From: Fibrobacter sp. UWR3
Lineage (GTDB): Bacteria; Fibrobacterota; Fibrobacteria; Fibrobacterales; Fibrobacteraceae
Assembly (NCBI RefSeq): GCF_900143055.1
Contig: NZ_FRCW01000011.1
Coordinates: forward strand, 1-64,000
Reading direction: 5' to 3'
DNA: 64,000 bases
Part shown: piece by piece, positions 19,872 to 28,546 of the stretch
Position numbering within the stretch: the stretch's first letter is position 1
How the letters are laid out: each line of letters begins with the position of its first letter
The notes under the pieces: model-generated
Seen by the model: the letters and a program-made list of their open reading frames with translations, nothing else
What the model was told of the DNA's origin: nothing
Database searches by the model: none
Made by a program: the position numbers and the translations under genes

Positions 19872-21485
19872 ATGAGCGAAGATATTTTGTCAAAAATCGT
19901 ACGCATGCGCCGCGAGGATATCGAGCGGCTGGGCCTGAATTTCGGAATAGAGATTCCGGAGAAGCGACGCCGCGGGCACATCGAGTTCCTCGGGACGCCG
20001 GGTGCCATTCTCGAAGTCAAGCGTGCATCGCCCTCGAAGGGTGACATCGCTCCGGACCTTGACCCGGTTGGGCTTGCCAGTACGTATGCGGATGCACACG
20101 CCCAGGCGGTTTCGGTGCTGACCGAAGGCAATTTTTTCAAGGGAACGCTCCGCGACCTGATTGCGGTCGCCGATTCGATGGAAGAACGCGTAAAGAAGGG
20201 ACTGCACGCCTGCGCCGTTTTGCGCAAGGACTTTCTTTTGTTCGAAGACGAAATCGATATCGCGTACCGTTGCGGTGCTGATGCTGTGCTCCTGATTGCA
20301 AGAATCCTGGATGACGGACAACTTATTAAAATGGCGAAGCGTGCCCAGGGCCTCGGGATACAGGCGTTTGTCGAGGTCCGCGAGAAGGACGACTTCCGGA
20401 AGTTGGATGTTGTTCTGGAGGCGCTCGGGGCAGATGCCGTGAAGACGATTGTCGCGGGCGTGAACTCGCGCGATCTCGCTACGTTCCATACCGACCCGCT
20501 GGTTCCTGCTGCGGTGCGCGGTAAGTTGCCGGCGAAGGCGGTTTTTGAATCGGGCATACTGAGCGCGGGCGATGCAGCGTATGCACGCAACCTCGGGTTC
20601 ACGGGAATCCTTGTGGGCGAGGCTGTCGCGAAGAACCCGCCGCTCGCGAAAGAAGTTGTGGCTGCGTTCGAAAGCGGGTGCGAAAATGCCCGCGGCAAGT
20701 TCTGGAAAAAGTTCGCGGAACGCAGGGATGCCAAAAGGTTTTCCGCAAAGTTCCCTGAGCTTGCCGAAGGGAGCGTGCGGCCTCATCCGCTTGTTAAAAT
20801 CTGCGGCATCACACGCGAAGAAGACGGCATGCTTGCCGCTGAACTCGGTGCCGACATGCTGGGCTTTGTATTCAGCACTACCAAGCGCTTGACAACTGAA
20901 GAATTCGTGCGCGGTTTCGCTGCGAAAATTCGCTTGTGTCATCCTGAGCGTAGTGTTAACGGAGTCGAAGAATCTCCGCTCCTCGTCGGCGTCATCACTG
21001 ACCCGGATTCTCCCGAAGGCAAGACCGCCATCAGGCTCGCCCAGGAAGGCGTCTTGGATGCGGTGCAGCTTCACGGAATCGAGCCGACAAAGTGCCTGGA
21101 GCTGGCGGATGATAAGGTCACTGAGCTTGTCGAAGGGACAAATAAAGTTGGAATTCCCTACTACTGCGCTGCCCGCGTAGGTGCTCCCGAGGATTTCAAT
21201 TACGTCACTGCCCTCCGCAGGAACGGCGAACCCCGCATCTTGCTGGACGCGAAAGTCGAAGGCATTCCCGGCGGCACCGGAAAGACCATTCCCGAATCAT
21301 TACTGCGAGAAAAAGTGGGCGACCTGCCGCTTTGGCTTGCGGGCGGTATAAACCCCGAAAACGTGGGCGAAATCGTGGCCAAATTCCGTCCCGAACTTAT
21401 CGATGTATCCAGCGGCGTCGAAGACGCACTGGGAATCAAAAATGCGGAAAAAATGCGCAAACTGTTCGAAATTTTGCAAAAATAG
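19872..21485 (+). CDS. trpCF: Bifunctional indole-3-glycerol-phosphate synthase / phosphoribosylanthranilate isomerase
   Basis: The TrpC half (~1-260) shows the catalytic Lys motif EVKRASPSKG, LRKDFL and GVNSRDL. The TrpF half starts near residue 305 with VKICGITREED (catalytic Cys) and ends with LLDAKVEG (catalytic Asp) and LAGGINPENV. The two consecutive (beta/alpha)8 barrels carry out steps 3 and 4 of tryptophan synthesis, as in E. coli TrpC(F). Three segments do not belong to the family: the linker FPELAEG, CHPERSVNGVEES near 355-368, and VTELVEGTNK near 416-425. Each is the translation of an intergenic repeat inserted in frame. All catalytic motifs survive, so the enzyme is probably active. 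GAAGG precedes the ATG. Confidence 0.93.
   Translation: MSEDILSKIVRMRREDIERLGLNFGIEIPEKRRRGHIEFLGTPGAILEVKRASPSKGDIAPDLDPVGLASTYADAHAQAVSVLTEGNFFKGTLRDLIAVADSMEERVKKGLHACAVLRKDFLLFEDEIDIAYRCGADAVLLIARILDDGQLIKMAKRAQGLGIQAFVEVREKDDFRKLDVVLEALGADAVKTIVAGVNSRDLATFHTDPLVPAAVRGKLPAKAVFESGILSAGDAAYARNLGFTGILVGEAVAKNPPLAKEVVAAFESGCENARGKFWKKFAERRDAKRFSAKFPELAEGSVRPHPLVKICGITREEDGMLAAELGADMLGFVFSTTKRLTTEEFVRGFAAKIRLCHPERSVNGVEESPLLVGVITDPDSPEGKTAIRLAQEGVLDAVQLHGIEPTKCLELADDKVTELVEGTNKVGIPYYCAARVGAPEDFNYVTALRRNGEPRILLDAKVEGIPGGTGKTIPESLLREKVGDLPLWLAGGINPENVGEIVAKFRPELIDVSSGVEDALGIKNAEKMRKLFEILQK
20752..20772. repeat. Intergenic-type repeat inside trpCF, insertion 1
   Basis: CCTGAGCTTGCCGAAGGGA is a form of the CTGAGCTTGTCGAAG repeat half. 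It lies in the linker between the TrpC and TrpF barrels and encodes PELAEG. Confidence 0.6.
20937..20976. repeat. Intergenic-type repeat inside trpCF, insertion 2
   Basis: TGTCATCCTGAGCGTAGTG followed by GGAGTCGAAGAATCT is the full-length version of the dispersed repeat. It encodes CHPERSVNGVEES between a helix and the next strand (LVGVI) of the TrpF barrel. Confidence 0.75.
21117..21140. repeat. Intergenic-type repeat inside trpCF, insertion 3
   Basis: GTCACTGAGCTTGTCGAAGG encodes VTELVEG and lies in a surface loop of the TrpF barrel before the YYCAARV strand. Confidence 0.7.
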
Positions 21486-21531
21486 GCGTTTTTGACTAAA
21501 TTTTAATTTACAAAAATTTGCTTGTAACCTA

Positions 21532-21560
21532 TTGACAGACAAGGAATTAGTATATATATT
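21532..21560 (+). promoter_or_regulatory. Strong promoter of the trpB-A-E-GD transcript
   Basis: TTGACA (21532-21537), a 17-bp spacer and TATATT (21555-21560) match the sigma-70 consensus. Transcription would start near 21567, just before leader element 1. A weaker second candidate, TTGCCG (21712) with a 17-bp spacer and TAATTT (21735), precedes trpL. Confidence 0.8.
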
Positions 21561-21572
21561 GAATTTCATAAG

Positions 21573-21690
21573 GATGAAACGGGCAATCCGCTCTGGCCGC
21601 TAGCGGCAGGGTTCTCGGGAAAAGGGATTCAGGACTTGCCTTTTCATCTAGTGTTTCAGAAGGCTCCTCCGGGGGCCTTCAATTTTTTTT
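21573..21690 (+). ncRNA. Structured leader element 1 with terminator
   Basis: GATGAAACGGGCAA (21573-21586) can pair with TTGCCTTTTCATC (21636-21648) to close a multi-arm structure holding a GCCGC-TA-GCGGC hairpin (21596-21607). A terminator follows: GAAGGC (21659-21664) pairs with GCCTTC (21675-21680), then eight T. An ATG at 21574 opens a 9-codon frame (MKRAIRSGR) without Trp. The outer stem resembles that of the trpL leader downstream (GATGAATTCTGCAA pairing with a TTCATC arm), so it may be a diverged duplicate, an attenuator for another signal, or a terminated small RNA. Confidence 0.5.
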
Positions 21691-21747
21691 CAAAAATTTT
21701 GGGGCGACCCCTTGCCGCCAAAAAGATACATTCCTAATTTTGGCAAC

Positions 21748-21804
21748 ATGAAGATGAATTCTGCAATCCGTTTCAACCGTTGGTGGTGGGGCTCTAGAAC
21801 ATAG
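21748..21804 (+). CDS. trpL: Tryptophan leader peptide
   Basis: The 18-residue frame reads MKMNSAIRFNRWWWGSRT. Three consecutive Trp codons (21781-21789) lie just before the stop at 21802-21804. A run of Trp codons in a short ORF directly upstream of a terminator and trpB is the classical signature of ribosome-mediated transcription attenuation. The second ATG (21754) may also be used. Too short for normal ORF searches. Confidence 0.85.
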   Translation: MKMNSAIRFNRWWWGSRT

Positions 21805-21887
21805 AGTCCGGTTTTGCTGATTTCATCAAGTGCTTAAAATCAAGAATTGAAAAAGGCTTTCGGACTCCCGAAGGCCTTTAATTTTTT
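21804..21887 (+). terminator. trp attenuator: antiterminator and terminator
   Basis: Terminator: AAAGGCTTTCGG (21852-21863) pairs over 12 bp with CCGAAGGCCTTT (21868-21879), followed by a T-run to 21887. Antiterminator: GAGTCCG (21804-21810) is exactly complementary to CGGACTC (21861-21867), which overlaps the terminator's left arm and loop. The 5' antiterminator strand begins at the last base of the trpL stop codon. A ribosome that finishes trpL would cover it and allow termination; a ribosome stalled at the Trp codons would leave it free. Confidence 0.85.
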
Positions 21888-21929
21888 ACCCCGAGAACCT
21901 TTAACCACTAACCACTGCTCACTAACCCT

Positions 21930-23204
21930 ATGACTTCTACAACTTCTAACAACGGTTTCTTTGACAAGTTCGGTGGCAAGTACGTTGCCGAAATCATCCG
22001 TCGCCCGCTCGACGATCTCGAAGCGGCGTTCAACAAGTACATCCACGATCCGGAATTCCTCGAGGAGTTGCACGTTATCCAGCGCGACTACATTGGCCGC
22101 GAGACTCCGCTGTACTTCGCCCCGACCGCGACCGAACTCCTAGGCGGTGCGCAGATTTACATCAAGCTCGAAGGCCTTGCCAACACGGGCGCCCACAAGA
22201 TCAACAACGCCATCGGTCAGTGCTTGCTCGCAAAGAAGATGGGCAAGACCCGCATTATTGCGGAGACGGGTGCCGGCCAGCACGGGCTCGCTACCGCAGC
22301 CGCTTGCGCCAAACTCGGGCTCGAATGCGTCGTGTACATGGGCGAGGTTGACGTGCGCCGCCAGCAGCCGAACGTGGCGACCATGGAAATGTACGGTGCC
22401 AAGGTCGTGCCGGTCACGAGCGGTAGCCGCACCCTGAAGGATGCCGTGAACGAAGCCATGCGCGACTGGGCTACGAATTTCAAGAACACGCATTATGTGC
22501 TCGGTTCTGCCCTCGGTCCGGCTCCGTTCCCGGATATCGTGCGTACGTTCCAGTCCATCATCGGCGAAGAAGTCAAGCGCCAGGCCGCAGAACGCAACAT
22601 CGACATTGCCGCGATCGTTGCCTGCGTGGGTGGCGGTAGCAACTCCATCGGCGTGTTCACCCCGTTTATCGAAGACAAGAACGTGCGCCTGATTGGTGCG
22701 GAAGCGGGTGGCATCGGCCCGAACGTGGGCGAGAACGCATCCCGCATGACAGGTAACGCGAGCCGCGAAGGCATTCTGCAGGGTTACAAGAGCCGCTTCC
22801 TCATCGATGAAGACGGCCAGTCTATGCCGACCCGCTCCATTTCGGCAGGTCTTGACTACATGGGAATCGGGCCGCAACTCGCCGCCCTCGGCGAATCGGG
22901 CCGCGTGGAATTCACGAGCATTCTCGACAAGGAAGCTCTGGAAGCTGTGAAGTTCTTTGCCCGCAATGAAGGCATTCTCTTTGCGCTCGAAAGTGCGCAC
23001 GCGGGTGCCGCCGCCATGAAGATTGCGAAGGAACTCCCGAAGGACAAGGCGCTCGTCATCAACATGAGTGGCCGCGGCGACAAGGACATCTTTATCACGA
23101 GCCCGGTATTCCGACCCGAAAAGTGGAAGGAATTCCTGAAGGCCGAACTCAAGCGCCTCGAAAACAACGAGGACATCCACGACGCGGAGATTATGAACAA
23201 ATAG
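21930..23204 (+). CDS. trpB: Tryptophan synthase beta chain
   Basis: The 424-residue protein makes Trp from indole and serine with PLP. The PLP lysine motif is GAHKINN near residue 88-92, with ETGAGQHG and the phosphate-binding GGGSNSIG near 230. HAGAAAMK and SGRGDKD occur as in canonical TrpB1. Length is normal (~400). It is the first gene after the attenuator and works in the alpha2-beta2 complex with TrpA. The start ATG at 21930 lies 42 bases after the attenuator T-run; a CACTAACC-rich tract fills the gap and no strong ribosome binding site is visible. Confidence 0.97.
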   Translation: MTSTTSNNGFFDKFGGKYVAEIIRRPLDDLEAAFNKYIHDPEFLEELHVIQRDYIGRETPLYFAPTATELLGGAQIYIKLEGLANTGAHKINNAIGQCLLAKKMGKTRIIAETGAGQHGLATAAACAKLGLECVVYMGEVDVRRQQPNVATMEMYGAKVVPVTSGSRTLKDAVNEAMRDWATNFKNTHYVLGSALGPAPFPDIVRTFQSIIGEEVKRQAAERNIDIAAIVACVGGGSNSIGVFTPFIEDKNVRLIGAEAGGIGPNVGENASRMTGNASREGILQGYKSRFLIDEDGQSMPTRSISAGLDYMGIGPQLAALGESGRVEFTSILDKEALEAVKFFARNEGILFALESAHAGAAAMKIAKELPKDKALVINMSGRGDKDIFITSPVFRPEKWKEFLKAELKRLENNEDIHDAEIMNK

Positions 23205-23366: not shown

Positions 23367-24119
23367 ATGAACTTAATGTCTCATCTCATTGCCGGGTTCC
23401 CGGACGCAGAAACTTCTATTGCCATCGCCGACGCTCTCGTGAAGGGTGGCGCCAACATCCTTGAAATCCAGCTCGCGTTTAGTGACCCGAGCGCCGACGG
23501 TCCCGCTATCCAGACGGCCTCTACCGTCGCTCTCGAGAAGGGTTACTCCACCAAGCAGGGGCTTGAAGTCGTGAAGAAGATTCACGAACGCCACCCCGAA
23601 ACGCCGATTTACATCATGACCTACGGCTCACTTGCCTTTACGCCGGGTATAGACAACTTTGTACGTATGTGCAAGGACGCGGGTGTTTCGGCCTGCATTA
23701 TTCCCGACCTGCCGTTCGATTGCGACGAGGGCCTCACCGAAGCCTGCAAGAAGCACGGCCTCGAAAACATCCCGGTGGCAGCGCCCAGCATGACGAAGGA
23801 ACGCCTCGAAACGATGGCCTCCAAGGGTTTCAAGTACATCTACGCTGCCCTCCGCGCGGGCACGACCGGCAGCGAAACCACGATTGACCAGGCGACGCTC
23901 GACTTTATCGACACGGTCGGTAAGGGCGGCGCGAAGGTGCTCGGCGGCTTCGGTATCCGTAACGGCGAACAGTCCAAGGTGCTCAGCAAGCACGTGTATG
24001 CCGTTGTCGCGGGTTCCGTTTTCGTGAACATCGTGCTCGGCAACGAAGACTCTGCCGAAGGCCGCAAGAAGGCGATTGCCGAAATCGAGGCGAAGGCCAA
24101 GGAACTTACCCAATTCTAG
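23367..24119 (+). CDS. trpA: Tryptophan synthase alpha chain
   Basis: The 250-residue barrel cleaves indole-3-glycerol phosphate to indole for TrpB. The catalytic Glu is in LEIQLAFSDPSADGP (near 31) with the catalytic Asp in the following DGP motif, and the GFGIRNGEQ phosphate-binding loop is near 195. The protein starts directly at strand 1 (LMSHLIAGFPD), matching the shorter TrpA subgroup that has LMTHxxxGYPS rather than the E. coli type. An in-frame stop directly upstream excludes a longer N-terminus. It lies 162 bp after trpB in the same transcription unit. Confidence 0.93.
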   Translation: MNLMSHLIAGFPDAETSIAIADALVKGGANILEIQLAFSDPSADGPAIQTASTVALEKGYSTKQGLEVVKKIHERHPETPIYIMTYGSLAFTPGIDNFVRMCKDAGVSACIIPDLPFDCDEGLTEACKKHGLENIPVAAPSMTKERLETMASKGFKYIYAALRAGTTGSETTIDQATLDFIDTVGKGGAKVLGGFGIRNGEQSKVLSKHVYAVVAGSVFVNIVLGNEDSAEGRKKAIAEIEAKAKELTQF

Positions 24120-24150
24120 GGAATCAGGAATTTTAAAACAAGAGGATCAT

Positions 24151-25599
24151 ATGACCAACAAGATCAAGCACATTACAGAACAACCGACCTACGAGCCGCG
24201 TACTGATAGCATTTACGTGGCGCTCCCGGGCGAACGTTACACCCCGTTTTCGCTCGGCAAGAAGCTCGGTGCGAAGGCCATCTTCGAATCGGCAAGTTTC
24301 TCGCATGGCCGTAGCCGCTACTCCACCTTGATGGTGGACGAAGGATTCCGTCTGCGCCAGAACGAGAAGGACGTGAGCATCATCATCGACGGCAAGGAAA
24401 GCACGTTCCTCAAGGAAGGCGAGGGTGACATTCTCGACGCCCTCACGCTGATCTCTGCCGAAAACACGGTGCCGCCCAACCAGATTCCTATTCCTTCTTC
24501 GGGCGTGGGCTACCTCGGTTATGAATTCTGTGCCCGTTGCGATACGATTCGCCTTGCCCCGCAGGTGGACGAACTCAACATTCCCGAAGCGGAATTTTTG
24601 GTGGGCCACATCTACATCGTGTTCGACCACTTTACCGAAAAGCTTCACTTGTTCGCCCTGAACTACGAAGAACACCAGATTGACCTGAAGGCGGCCATCG
24701 AGAACGTGAAAACTCGCCTCGCGGATTTGGACTTCAGTTACCTCGCTCCCGAACCGCAGTACGGCAAGGGCATTACGATGACCGACCTGGAACAGTCCCG
24801 CAAGGAATACGTGGAAAAGGTCGAAGCCCTGCAGAAGCACATTGTCGCCGGCAACATCGTGCAGGCCGTGCCTTCGCGCCGCATCCAGTTTGCAAGCGAC
24901 ATCGCGGCGCTGGATATTTACCGCAGGCTCCGCACGGTTAACCCGTCTCCGTACATGTTCTTCCTCGATTACGGCACGCACCAGTTTATTGGTGCCTCGC
25001 CCGAAAGCCTCGTGCGTGTGCGTGAAGGCATTGCAACGATTCACCCGATTGCAGGTACCCGCCGCCGCGGTAAGGACGACGCAGAAGACGAAGCCCTGAT
25101 GAAGAACCTGAAGGGCGACCCGAAGGAACGCGCCGAACACCTGATGCTCGTGGACTTGGCCCGTAACGACCTGGGCCGCGTCTGCGAAGCGGGTACGGTG
25201 GAAACCACCAAGTACATGGAATGCGAAAAGTTCAGCCACGTGATTCACCTGGTCTCTGACGTGCAGGGCCGTGTGGCGAAGAACAAGAAGGCCATCGAAG
25301 TGCTGCGCTCCAGTTTTCCGGCTGGTACGGTGAGCGGTGCCCCGAAAATCAGCGCGATTGAAATCCTTTCTGGCCTCGAGAAGGTCAAGCGCCGCTTCTA
25401 CGCAGGTGCGGTTGGCTATATGGAATCCGACGGCGACTTGGATTTCTGCATCGCCATCCGTTGCTGCCTCAAGCAGGGCAAGACCATCAGCTTGCAGGCC
25501 GGTGGCGGCATTGTCGCGGCATCTAACGCCGACCGCGAATTCGAAGAAACGAACGAAAAGCTCGGAGCAATCAGAGCCGTGCTCGAAGGAGAAAACTAA
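24151..25599 (+). CDS. trpE: Anthranilate synthase component I
   Basis: The 482-residue chorismate-utilizing enzyme joins chorismate and ammonia to anthranilate. It shows the IAGTRRRGKDD motif, the LVDLARNDLGRVC segment, FPAGTVSGAPK and the C-terminal QAGGGIVAASNADREFEET. Near the N-terminus FESASFSHGRSRYS corresponds to the ES...RYS tryptophan-binding site of feedback-inhibited TrpE. The ATG at 24151 has AGAGGA eight bases upstream; the frame extends 25 codons further up into trpA, which is not coding. It works with the glutaminase domain of TrpGD. Confidence 0.96.
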   Translation: MTNKIKHITEQPTYEPRTDSIYVALPGERYTPFSLGKKLGAKAIFESASFSHGRSRYSTLMVDEGFRLRQNEKDVSIIIDGKESTFLKEGEGDILDALTLISAENTVPPNQIPIPSSGVGYLGYEFCARCDTIRLAPQVDELNIPEAEFLVGHIYIVFDHFTEKLHLFALNYEEHQIDLKAAIENVKTRLADLDFSYLAPEPQYGKGITMTDLEQSRKEYVEKVEALQKHIVAGNIVQAVPSRRIQFASDIAALDIYRRLRTVNPSPYMFFLDYGTHQFIGASPESLVRVREGIATIHPIAGTRRRGKDDAEDEALMKNLKGDPKERAEHLMLVDLARNDLGRVCEAGTVETTKYMECEKFSHVIHLVSDVQGRVAKNKKAIEVLRSSFPAGTVSGAPKISAIEILSGLEKVKRRFYAGAVGYMESDGDLDFCIAIRCCLKQGKTISLQAGGGIVAASNADREFEETNEKLGAIRAVLEGEN

Positions 25600-25600
25600 G

Positions 25601-27196
25601 ATGATCATCATTATCGACAACTACGACTCTTTTACTTACAACGTCTATCAGGCGCTTGCAAAAATAACTAACGAAGAAATCCGCGTGCTCCGTAGCCGCG
25701 AATGCACCATCGCCGACATCGAAAAACTGAACCCGAGCCGCCTTATTGTGAGCCCGGGCCCGGGCCGCCCCGAAGACGCCGGCATATCCGTGGAAGCCAT
25801 CAAGCACTTTGCGGGCAAACTCCCGATTCTCGGCGTTTGCCTCGGCCACCAGGCCATCGGTTACGCTTTCGGCGCAAAGATTGTGCAGGCCAAGTTCATC
25901 AAGCACGGCATCGCCGAAGAAATCGACCTGGACGGCAAGGGACTCTTCCGCACCATCGGCAAGAAGAACATCTTCACGCGTTACCACAGCCTGGTCGTTG
26001 ACGAAGCGACGCTCTCTCCGGATTTCGAAGTGACCGCGCGTGCTACCGACGGCGATATCATGGGCATTCGCCACAAGACGCTCCCGATTGAAGGCGTGCA
26101 GTTCCACCCGGAATCTATTGCCAGCGGCCGCGCCGACGAATTCTTCAAGGCGTTCCTCAACTACCGTCGCGAACCGCTTGACGTGCGCGGAATCTTGAAC
26201 ACGCTTACCGAAGGCAAGGACTTGAGCCGCGAAACCGCCGAAATGTTCATGGAAGACTTGACCGACGGCATCATGGACGAACGCCAGATGGCTGCTATCC
26301 TTACCGCACTTTCCAGCAAGGGCCCTGTTGCCGACGAAATCGCTGGCTGCGCGAAGGTACTCAGCAGCAAGAAGCGCAAGTTCCCTTACAGTGGCGACGA
26401 ACTCACCGACATCGTGGGTACCGGTGGCGACGGCAAGGGAAGCTTCAACGTGAGCTCGCTCTCCGGCCTGATTGCTGCCAGCTGTGGCGCAAAGATTGCT
26501 AAGCACGGCAACCGCGCGGTTTCCAGTAAGTCCGGCGCCGCCGACTTCTATACGGCCGCAGGCTTCAAGCTGGACATGGTTCCCGAAAAGGCAGCCTCCG
26601 TCATCGACAAGACGAACTTCGTGTTCCTCATGGCGCCTGTTTACCACAGTGCCATGCGCTTTGCGGGCCCGGTTCGCGGCGTTCTCGGCGTGAAGACCAT
26701 CATGAACCTGCTCGGCCCCCTCACGAACCCGGCCGAAGCCAAGTACCTGATGCTCGGTGTCTATAGCACGACCGTGCTGGAACCGTTCACCAAGGCGGCG
26801 AAGGCCCTCGGCGCGAAGCGCGTGATGGTCGCCATCAGTGACGACGGCTACGACGAAATTTCGCCCTGCGTGCCGACGACCATCGCCGAAATCCTGGAAG
26901 ATGGCGAGTACAAGACTTACCGCATCGACCCCAAGGACTTCGGCATCCCCTCCGTGGATCCCGAAGACCTCGCCGGCGGTACGGGAGTCGACAACTTCAA
27001 CCTCGCTCTCGACGTGCTGAACGGCAAGGGCCGCCCGGGCATTAAGTACGCCTGCGCCCTGAACGCCGGTGCCGCCCTCTACATCAGCAAGAAGGCAGCC
27101 AGCATCAAGGAAGGCTTCGACAAGGCCATGAAGGCGATGGAAGACGGCTCCGTTCTGAAGAAAATCGAGGAAGTCAAGGCTGCAACGAATTCGTAA
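25601..27196 (+). CDS. trpGD: Anthranilate synthase glutaminase / anthranilate phosphoribosyltransferase fusion
   Basis: The 531-residue fusion has an N-terminal class I glutamine amidotransferase with nucleophile motif GVCLGHQAIGYAFG (near 79) and GVQFHPES. It is followed by the TrpD domain with VGTGGDGKGSFNVSS (near 272) and KHGNRAVSSKSGAADF. The length and domain order equal E. coli TrpGD. It gives TrpE its ammonia and performs the next step with PRPP. The ATG overlaps the trpE end region (AAACTAAGATG), so translation is coupled; AAGGAG lies just upstream. Last gene of the trp operon. Confidence 0.96.
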   Translation: MIIIIDNYDSFTYNVYQALAKITNEEIRVLRSRECTIADIEKLNPSRLIVSPGPGRPEDAGISVEAIKHFAGKLPILGVCLGHQAIGYAFGAKIVQAKFIKHGIAEEIDLDGKGLFRTIGKKNIFTRYHSLVVDEATLSPDFEVTARATDGDIMGIRHKTLPIEGVQFHPESIASGRADEFFKAFLNYRREPLDVRGILNTLTEGKDLSRETAEMFMEDLTDGIMDERQMAAILTALSSKGPVADEIAGCAKVLSSKKRKFPYSGDELTDIVGTGGDGKGSFNVSSLSGLIAASCGAKIAKHGNRAVSSKSGAADFYTAAGFKLDMVPEKAASVIDKTNFVFLMAPVYHSAMRFAGPVRGVLGVKTIMNLLGPLTNPAEAKYLMLGVYSTTVLEPFTKAAKALGAKRVMVAISDDGYDEISPCVPTTIAEILEDGEYKTYRIDPKDFGIPSVDPEDLAGGTGVDNFNLALDVLNGKGRPGIKYACALNAGAALYISKKAASIKEGFDKAMKAMEDGSVLKKIEEVKAATNS

Positions 27197-27275: not shown

Positions 27276-27310
27276 TGCGCACAAATTTGTTAGAAGATAG
27301 GGAAAAAATT

Positions 27311-28546
27311 ATGGAAAAACGCACAAGTCTATTCACCAATGCCGTCATCTGGTTCGGCGTCGCAGTTTCCGTTTCCGAAATTGAGGCGGGTATAGAAATC
27401 GGTGCCGAGGCTGCTCCGGGTTCCCTGTGGTTGCCTCTGGTTCTCGGGCATATCGTCGGCGGAATTTTCCTGTTCTTCGTGGGGCTTATCGGCGCCCGCA
27501 TCCGGGTGAACGCGATGGAAACGACAGCCTCTGTCTACGGGACATACGGCTCCAAGTTCTTTGCGTCGCTGAACCTTTTCCAGCTGGTGGCGTGGATTGC
27601 GGTCTTGAACGCGCAGGGCGCCTCCGTGCTCGCGGGCCTGGACCTTCCGATTTCGTTCCCGTTGACCTGCGTGCTGCTTGCGGTGCTTATCGCGCTCTGG
27701 GTTTTCGTGGGTCTGCGTCGCTTCGCGAAGGTCACTACCGTCGTGATGGCGGTGCTCGCCGTCTTGCTTGCTGCCTTGACGGTTAAGTTGTTCGGAACGG
27801 GCTCGATTTCTGCCGGGGCATCCTCTTCGGGTGCGGATTCCGCGGGCCACGCCCTCGGTTTCTGGAACATCTTTGAAATATCTATGGCCCTGCCTCTCTC
27901 GTGGTTGCCCGTGATTTCGGACTACACGAAGGATGTGGAAAAGCCGGTGCGCGCTACGGCGGTTTCTGCCATCGCTTACTCCATCGCCAGTTTCTGGATG
28001 TATTTCATCGGGCTTGAAATCGCAAGTGCCGGTGTGGGCAACGACATCGCGAAGGCGATTCTCCTTGCGGGTCTCGGAATCCCGGGCATCGTTATCGTTG
28101 TGCTCTCTACCGTCACGACGAACTTCCTTGCGGCAAATTCCGCGGGCGAATCGGCGAAGGCGATTGTGCGCAGGCTGAACCCGAAAATCACGGGCGTCGT
28201 GGTGAGCGCCATCAGTGCACTCCTCGCGATTTCGGGAATCATGGACCACTACATCAGCTTCCTCTACCTCATCGCTTCGGTCTTTGCACCGATGGCCGCC
28301 GTTCTTCTGGTGTCGTTCTACTTCGGGAAGGCCGGCGCAGTTCATACCGGCGAAGAAACTGCCCGCGAAGAAATTGCCTGCGCATCCGGCAAGGCGTTCT
28401 GGATTTGGAACCTTTTCGCGTGGCTTGCGGGCTTTGTCGTGTACCAGGTCGCCGTGCGCTTGGATTCCGTGCCGCTCGGTCCCACGCTTCTCGCTGTCAT
28501 CGTATCGGCGGCTCTTGCCTACGCTCGCGTGCTTGTGAAGCGGTAG
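27311..28546 (+). CDS. cytX: NCS1-family permease, CytX-like (hydroxymethylpyrimidine uptake)
   Basis: The 411-residue protein has about 12 hydrophobic segments and the CytX/NCS1 N-terminus (FTNAVIWFGVAVSVSEIEAG), with WLPVISDYTKD in the middle. CytX transporters import the thiamine pyrimidine precursor HMP, and the following kinase and thiS/thiF genes support that role. ATG 27311 follows TAGGG at 8 bases; the longer frame begins with a TTG inside the promoter. It heads a five-gene plus-strand run. The substrate is inferred from family and context. Confidence 0.75.
   Translation: MEKRTSLFTNAVIWFGVAVSVSEIEAGIEIGAEAAPGSLWLPLVLGHIVGGIFLFFVGLIGARIRVNAMETTASVYGTYGSKFFASLNLFQLVAWIAVLNAQGASVLAGLDLPISFPLTCVLLAVLIALWVFVGLRRFAKVTTVVMAVLAVLLAALTVKLFGTGSISAGASSSGADSAGHALGFWNIFEISMALPLSWLPVISDYTKDVEKPVRATAVSAIAYSIASFWMYFIGLEIASAGVGNDIAKAILLAGLGIPGIVIVVLSTVTTNFLAANSAGESAKAIVRRLNPKITGVVVSAISALLAISGIMDHYISFLYLIASVFAPMAAVLLVSFYFGKAGAVHTGEETAREEIACASGKAFWIWNLFAWLAGFVVYQVAVRLDSVPLGPTLLAVIVSAALAYARVLVKR

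Follow-up and report, generated by a model that had tools for sequence, protein, structure and literature searches.

The trpL leader of Escherichia coli combines a short open reading frame (ORF) with adjacent Trp codons, four RNA strands (1 to 4), and a stop codon at which a terminating ribosome masks strand 2. In Sinorhizobium meliloti, according to the excerpted text of PMC7298713, the trpLE(G) RNA starts at the leader ATG, the trp genes are split over several operons, and only trpE(G) of the three trp operons is attenuated. For the actinobacteria, the available part of PMC1262725 shows that in C. diphtheriae candidate attenuators precede both trpB1EDGC and trpB2A, two separate trp operons, with the strand sequences gGCC-rGCy-GGCC. 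In Flavobacterium psychrophilum, leader-peptide attenuation was inferred before amino-acid operons, and a TAnnTTTG promoter box sits at -12 to -5 (PMC9723704, accessible sections).

The locus studied here lies in a 64,000-nucleotide stretch of the Fibrobacter sp. UWR3 genome (contig NZ_FRCW01000011.1), referred to below as the window. Positions 21748 to 21887 share the listed features of E. coli trpL and reach the same fold outcomes through the same ribosome states. This region is very probably a complete, family-wide ribosome-mediated trp attenuator of a kind already known, which would place classical trp attenuation in the Fibrobacterota, rumen cellulose degraders. In contrast to E. coli trpL, to which no relationship in sequence could be detected (no Rfam match), the Fibrobacter leader controls a trpB-first instead of a trpE-first unit and has a predicted leaderless start, an extra outer stem (P0), and WWW instead of WW. 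The predicted start at the ATG and the division of the trp genes over several operons are shared with S. meliloti; however, leaders in the Fibrobacteraceae precede trpB, trpE, or trpCF. Candidate attenuators before more than one trp operon of a genome are shared with the actinobacteria, which belong to another phylum and differ in strand sequence; leader-peptide attenuation, itself inferred there, and the promoter box are shared with F. psychrophilum. No description of trp attenuation in Fibrobacter was found in a literature search that returned general papers or work on other groups and did not reach the bulk of the subscription literature, older reviews of trp operon regulation among it, nor do the accessible portions of PMC2864571 and PMC4833913 contain one. 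The features of the locus are as follows.

19872 to 21485, plus strand: trpCF (indole-glycerol-phosphate synthase/phosphoribosylanthranilate isomerase fusion), outside leader control; full-length match to NF006945 TrpC/TrpF, E 5.7e-56, below cutoff
21532 to 21561, plus strand: sigma70-like promoter of the upstream element, TTGACA-N17-TATATT(G), read from the sequence; CTATTGAC...TATATTG is kept before the element in relatives
21564 to 21689, plus strand: upstream conserved RNA element of about 120 nt, with a terminator at about 21661 to 21689; models R1 and R2, alignment A2 (see below)
21712 to 21742, plus strand: trp leader promoter, with TTG at 21712 to 21714 and TAATTTTG at 21735 to 21742; predicted transcription start 21747 +/-1
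21748 to 21804, plus strand: leader peptide ORF MKMNSAIRFNRWWWGSRT, 18 codons, with ATG 21748 to 21750, Trp codons 21781 to 21789 (codons 12 to 14), and stop TAG 21802 to 21804; read from the sequence
21753 to 21769, plus strand: 5' arm of outer stem P0, pairing with 21810 to 21827; folding
21789 to 21796, plus strand: strand 1, pairing with strand 2 and overlapping the third Trp codon by that codon's final base
21802 to 21811, plus strand: strand 2, the switch strand, of which 21804 to 21811 pairs with strand 3; holds GAGTCCG at 21804 to 21810
21810 to 21827, plus strand: 3' arm of P0, pairing with 21753 to 21769; folding
21852 to 21863, plus strand: strand 3, the left arm of the terminator; the antiterminator takes 21860 to 21867 (left arm and loop)
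21868 to 21887, plus strand: strand 4, the right arm of the terminator (21868 to 21879) and the T-rich run; sequence and alignment
21930 to 23204, plus strand: trpB, the first gene behind the attenuator; TIGR00263, 546.8 bits (cutoff 392)
23367 to 24119, plus strand: trpA; TIGR00262, 194.1 bits (cutoff 102)
24148 to 25599, plus strand: trpE; TIGR00564, 476 bits, just below the cutoff of 517.7
25604 to 27196, plus strand: trpGD fusion; NF011201, 790 bits (cutoff 670)

A thiamine-linked gene stands directly behind the trp operon: a CytX-like hydroxymethylpyrimidine transporter (match below cutoff) follows trpGD at 27308 to 28543.

Direct reading of the sequence bore out the initial annotation, which had described the 18-codon WWW ORF, the 12-bp terminator, and an antiterminator whose 5' strand (21804 to 21810) begins at the last base of the stop codon and finds its complement in the terminator loop and left arm. 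That description is extended here by strand 1, which overlaps the last Trp codon, by outer stem P0, and by another element, homologous to the leader, at 21568 to 21688. The terminator stem (21852 to 21863 with 21868 to 21879) has 12 pairs including G-U, a loop at 21864 to 21867, and a T-rich run to 21887; GAGTCCG is complementary to CGGACTC at 21861 to 21867, extended by one G-U pair. Folding 21740 to 21890, as had been proposed, gave -49.7 kcal/mol (z -3.76), and 0 of 200 dinucleotide shuffles were equally stable. The 2:3 complement of the window was equaled by 0.4% of shuffled strand-2 windows. By itself, WWW is weak evidence, since TGGTGGTGG occurs 75 times in the 3.55-Mb genome. Conservation among relatives is the decisive evidence for an attenuator.

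Bacteroidota and Fibrobacterota are kin, and Fibrobacter may be served by the same promoter type as Flavobacterium. The conserved blocks upstream of the leader are CCCTTGCC and TAnnTT; the spacing from TTG to TA is 23 nt in all 56 aligned leaders, and that from TA to the ATG is 12 to 14 nt. With the box at its Flavobacterium distance, the Fibrobacter leader would start at the ATG or 1 to 2 nt before it, and the leader mRNA is thus predicted to be (nearly) leaderless, as in S. meliloti trpL. Among Bacteroides 5' untranslated regions, only about 3.7% are shorter than 10 nt (PMC7366714, accessible text). A literature search on Fibrobacter transcription start sites found nothing.

The hairpins 1:2, 2:3, and 3:4 are mutually exclusive, and 3:4 is an intrinsic terminator with a U-run. 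With a ribosome footprint assumed to mask 12 nt past the codon in the A site, the positions of the Trp codons and of the stop suit the switch: strand 2 stays free when the ribosome stalls and is covered when it terminates. For nascent RNA that stops just beyond strand 3, a ribosome stalled on the last Trp codon gives the 2:3 hairpin a predicted p(2:3) of at least 0.996 in 56/56 leaders. In the nascent RNA without a ribosome, p(2:3) is at most 0.035 in 51/56 and 0.12 to 0.70 in the remaining ones (L010, L021, L122, L131, and L139). A ribosome at the stop codon gives a terminator p of at least 0.996 in every one of the 56. For the complete RNA with a stalled ribosome, equilibrium still favors the terminator in 54/56; antitermination must therefore be kinetic and, in line with the classical model, set by the order of events rather than by stability. 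The E. coli K-12 trp leader showed the same pattern in minimum-energy folds under the same ribosome states, which supports the enterobacterial-type logic that had been proposed for this locus.

In the outer stem, leader codons 3 to 8 are paired with the stretch that follows strand 2. This pairing equals or beats at least 95% of shuffles in 48/56 rows, and exchanging the arms between clades gave poorer pairing than the cognate arms in four representatives. As modeled, P0 would sequester strands 1 and 2 until translation begins. RNA polymerase would start at or just before the leader ATG, and the ORF would be read from a (nearly) leaderless mRNA. Lacking a ribosome, P0 and hairpin 1:2 would lock strand 2, allowing the terminator to form. 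When Trp is scarce, a ribosome waiting at the UGG codons 12 to 14 would open P0 and 1:2 and leave strand 2 free from 21802, after which 2:3 would form before strand 4 is made and the polymerase would read into trpB. When Trp is plentiful, a ribosome at the stop (21802 to 21804) would cover strand 2, and 3:4 would terminate transcription. We infer leader translation, stalling, termination, and a response to Trp; with high confidence, 21748 to 21887 is a ribosome-mediated transcription attenuator through which charged tRNA-Trp would control the expression of trpBA-E-GD.

TrpB-like matches are present in 102 of the 111 family genomes, and the region upstream of trpB was inspected in 70, including that of the window. 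Adjacent Trp codons in a TGGTGG leader precede trpB in 61/70 regions, one of them (L124, from G096) without a start codon. There, the leader start and the N-terminal codons are missing and the -33 box of the promoter runs into the Trp codons, reflecting either a deletion or an assembly error. The nine regions without a TGGTGG leader comprise a genus-mate (L013), three of genus g5, one of g9, one of g7, and three of g4; trpB lies directly behind trpF in L013 and behind a trpF-like sequence in g7. The g4 genomes (G010, G013, and G009; L150 to L152) carry a distant TrpB, 51 to 55% identical to that of the window and without an R1 match, which by its sequence appears to be another trp gene lineage within the family.

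Alignment A1 holds 56 distinct trpB leaders that were chosen by TGGTGG, such that WW is present by construction; exact duplicates, L039 and L126 (too little 3' sequence), L124, and loci without TGGTGG were left out. Strands 1 and 2 pair at 8/8 positions in 48/56 leaders and at 6 to 7 of 8 in the other eight, by hand-anchored counting. This counting was used because the MAFFT alignment, which misaligns strand 1 of clade B and g6, yielded no column covariation for 1:2. The 2:3 core GTCCG/CGGAC is complete in 51/56, and each of the remaining five has a single mismatch where strand 3 contains an additional G, so that four of the five core pairs are present in all 56 leaders. In clade B (six rows), strand 2 changes C to U and strand 3 G to A, turning a C-G pair into U-A, and strand 4 changes to match. 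Across the 2:3 columns, 94.9% of cells are paired and seven are two-sided, which 0 of 500 shuffles reach; the terminator columns have 19 two-sided cells, likewise reached by 0 of 500. The switch pairing is thus conserved with compensatory change, though in few independent events: most 1:2 and 2:3 pairs are invariant, and the two-sided 2:3 change rests on essentially one event. The initial annotation had made conservation of the Trp codons and of GAGTCCG/CGGACTC its test, and both are kept in the genus; where the pairing is changed, its two sides change together.

A broader set comprises 20 leader types. A terminator was found in 17 of these, and the shuffle figures exclude L200, L239, and L240. 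The 2:3 complement is better than 95% of shuffles in 16/17 types, the exception being L205, a main-clade trpE leader with an internal 2:3 mismatch (shuffle p 0.27). In the ATCGGAG/CTCCGAT and GAGTCTGG/CCAGACTC types, the pairing is preserved in different letters. The mean 2:3 score is 9.8 for cognate and 8.0 for swapped strands (sd 1.7), with many swapped pairs being of the same type. The L239 and L240 leaders have a weak T-run.

The leader peptide is kept across relatives while the flanking sequence diverges, reading MKMN..IRFNRWWWGS(R/T)(T/K) in the main clade, MKMINVLCENFDGRWWRGL in clade B, and MKNVKNNNRWWRRA in genus g6. In the main clade, not only the Trp codons but also the N-terminal IRFNR is conserved, which would fit a terminated leader RNA or peptide that also acts in trans, like rnTrpL/peTrpL of Sinorhizobium, with attenuation being only part of the function; the leaderless start would be a further likeness to S. 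meliloti (PMC7298713, excerpted text). However, the same bases build P0, which may explain the conservation of IRFNR, and the clade B and g6 peptides differ. We consider such a trans function unlikely. Far less credible is a hairpin that merely terminates an upstream transcript, with a coincidental Trp-rich ORF and another promoter driving trpB. The T-rich intrinsic terminator and its dominance at equilibrium without a ribosome agree with that proposal, but trpCF already has a terminator (21661 to 21689) ahead of the leader promoter, only 42 nt separate the leader terminator from trpB, and 56 leaders share the placement of the stop, strands 1 and 2, and the spacing of the promoter.

The Rfam family Trp_leader gave no match at the gathering score in the whole window nor at E<=10 in 21480 to 21930, where only sub-threshold matches to any family appeared. 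The T-box covariance model had no match before trpB. Attenuation through a protein or RNA ligand (T-box, TRAP-like, or riboswitch) instead of the ribosome is scarcely credible: TRAP does control tryptophan genes in Bacillus (PMC4027176, accessible part), but only two tRNAs reach Rfam cutoffs within the whole window, no T-box is found in 21480 to 21930 even at E<=10, and such mechanisms need no conserved Trp-codon ORF over the switch.

Leaders of this kind are widespread in the family. The covariance model of the leader, R1, matches 90/111 family genomes at E<=1 and 92/167 phylum genomes at E<=0.01, so that the suggestion that such a leader is unusual for a Fibrobacter-type genome does not hold. 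Among the fetched loci, WW or WWW leaders precede trpE in 19 genomes (G053, G062, G108, G102, G018, G076, G038, G025, G047, G072, G028, G070, and G021; G015, G106, G105, and G103, as single-operon leaders; and G151 and G152, of another family). WWW leaders precede trpCF in five (G076, G038, G077, G039, and G108; loci L213, L214, L217, L227, and L229, for example MQIKVASTAKEFFANRWWWGSIG). Leaders before all three of trpB, trpE, and trpCF occur in three examined genomes (G076, G038, and G108). The paralogous trpE and trpCF leaders keep WW or WWW and, for the most part, a complementary 2:3 in other sequences. In main-clade trpE leaders (L205, L215, and similar), both the 2:3 and the 1:2 helix contain a C/A mismatch (TAGAGCCCGG versus CCGGACTC).

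In the genomes with trpB directly behind trpF and a fetched leader (G039, G015, G105, and G103), the leader precedes trpCF or trpE and therefore tracks the first gene of the trp unit, following operon breakpoints. The family offers a natural experiment, with one and the same attenuator placed ahead of trpB, trpE, or trpCF in operons that have divided or merged. Besides the trpB leader and the upstream element, the R1 search had no match in the genome of the window; no leader was found before trpCF, which therefore lies outside this control. The regulatory split described in the initial annotation is thus true here, but it is lineage specific, given that trpCF has its own WWW leader in five relatives. 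Likewise, trpCF does lie upstream of the leader promoter, but the region before that promoter is not empty and holds a homologous RNA element. Several R1 matches were taken as chance: those outside the order (G163, G130, and G138) and at L221 and L218 have neither a trp gene match nor a WW leader, and L222 has no WW leader, the sole match next to it, to the TrpGD query, being at 26%. L223 to L226, L231, and L232 are upstream elements, refound by the model R2.

In the window, R1 matches this upstream element at 21568 to 21688 with 48.8 bits (E 2.3e-9). It is homologous to the leader but has no Trp codons or antiterminator, and its long stem is built of the same sequences as P0. In its terminator, the pairing is kept while the letters vary, with two-sided changes at 4 of 16 predicted pairs. 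R2, built on the upstream element, scores the window copy, a row included in model building, at 109.1 bits (E 1.8e-27) and reaches at least 96 bits at 51 places in 50/111 family genomes, all in the genus of the window; the trp leaders themselves score 44 to 94 bits. Relatives for alignment A2 were collected by TTTCATC(A/T)AGTGTTT and CTATTGAC, meaning that both motifs are present by selection, while R2 is independent of exact motifs. From the 33 found, the long rows L123, L127, and L129 were dropped and the window was added, giving 31 sequences.

A conserved ORF in the element was rejected, as the peptides differ and are frameshifted from genome to genome. A mere decayed leader also fits poorly, with the promoter, body, and TTTCATC(A/T)AGTGTTT conserved in the 31 aligned sequences. 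Across the 111 family genomes, R2 did not find the element in clade B or outside the genus, and duplication within the main clade is therefore the simplest origin. The element is a candidate sRNA that would have arisen by duplication of an attenuator. It had no Rfam match at cutoff, and a literature search on Fibrobacter sRNA, judged by titles and the opening lines of abstracts, yielded nothing on topic.

Tentatively, a tandem duplication of the attenuator in the core Fibrobacter clade may have produced a stand-alone sRNA. This copy, driven by a strong TTGACA/TATATT promoter, would have shed its Trp codons and antiterminator while retaining, in longer form, the outer stem and the terminator. 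It might act in trans or as a decoy for a leader-recognizing factor, linking transcription beside trpCF to trpBA-E-GD; this full scenario is possible but doubtful. If the element is an expressed RNA, it would exemplify an attenuator that has become an RNA gene of its own next to a parent that is still intact. It is single copy in the genome of the window, save for a 34-nt match to its promoter part.
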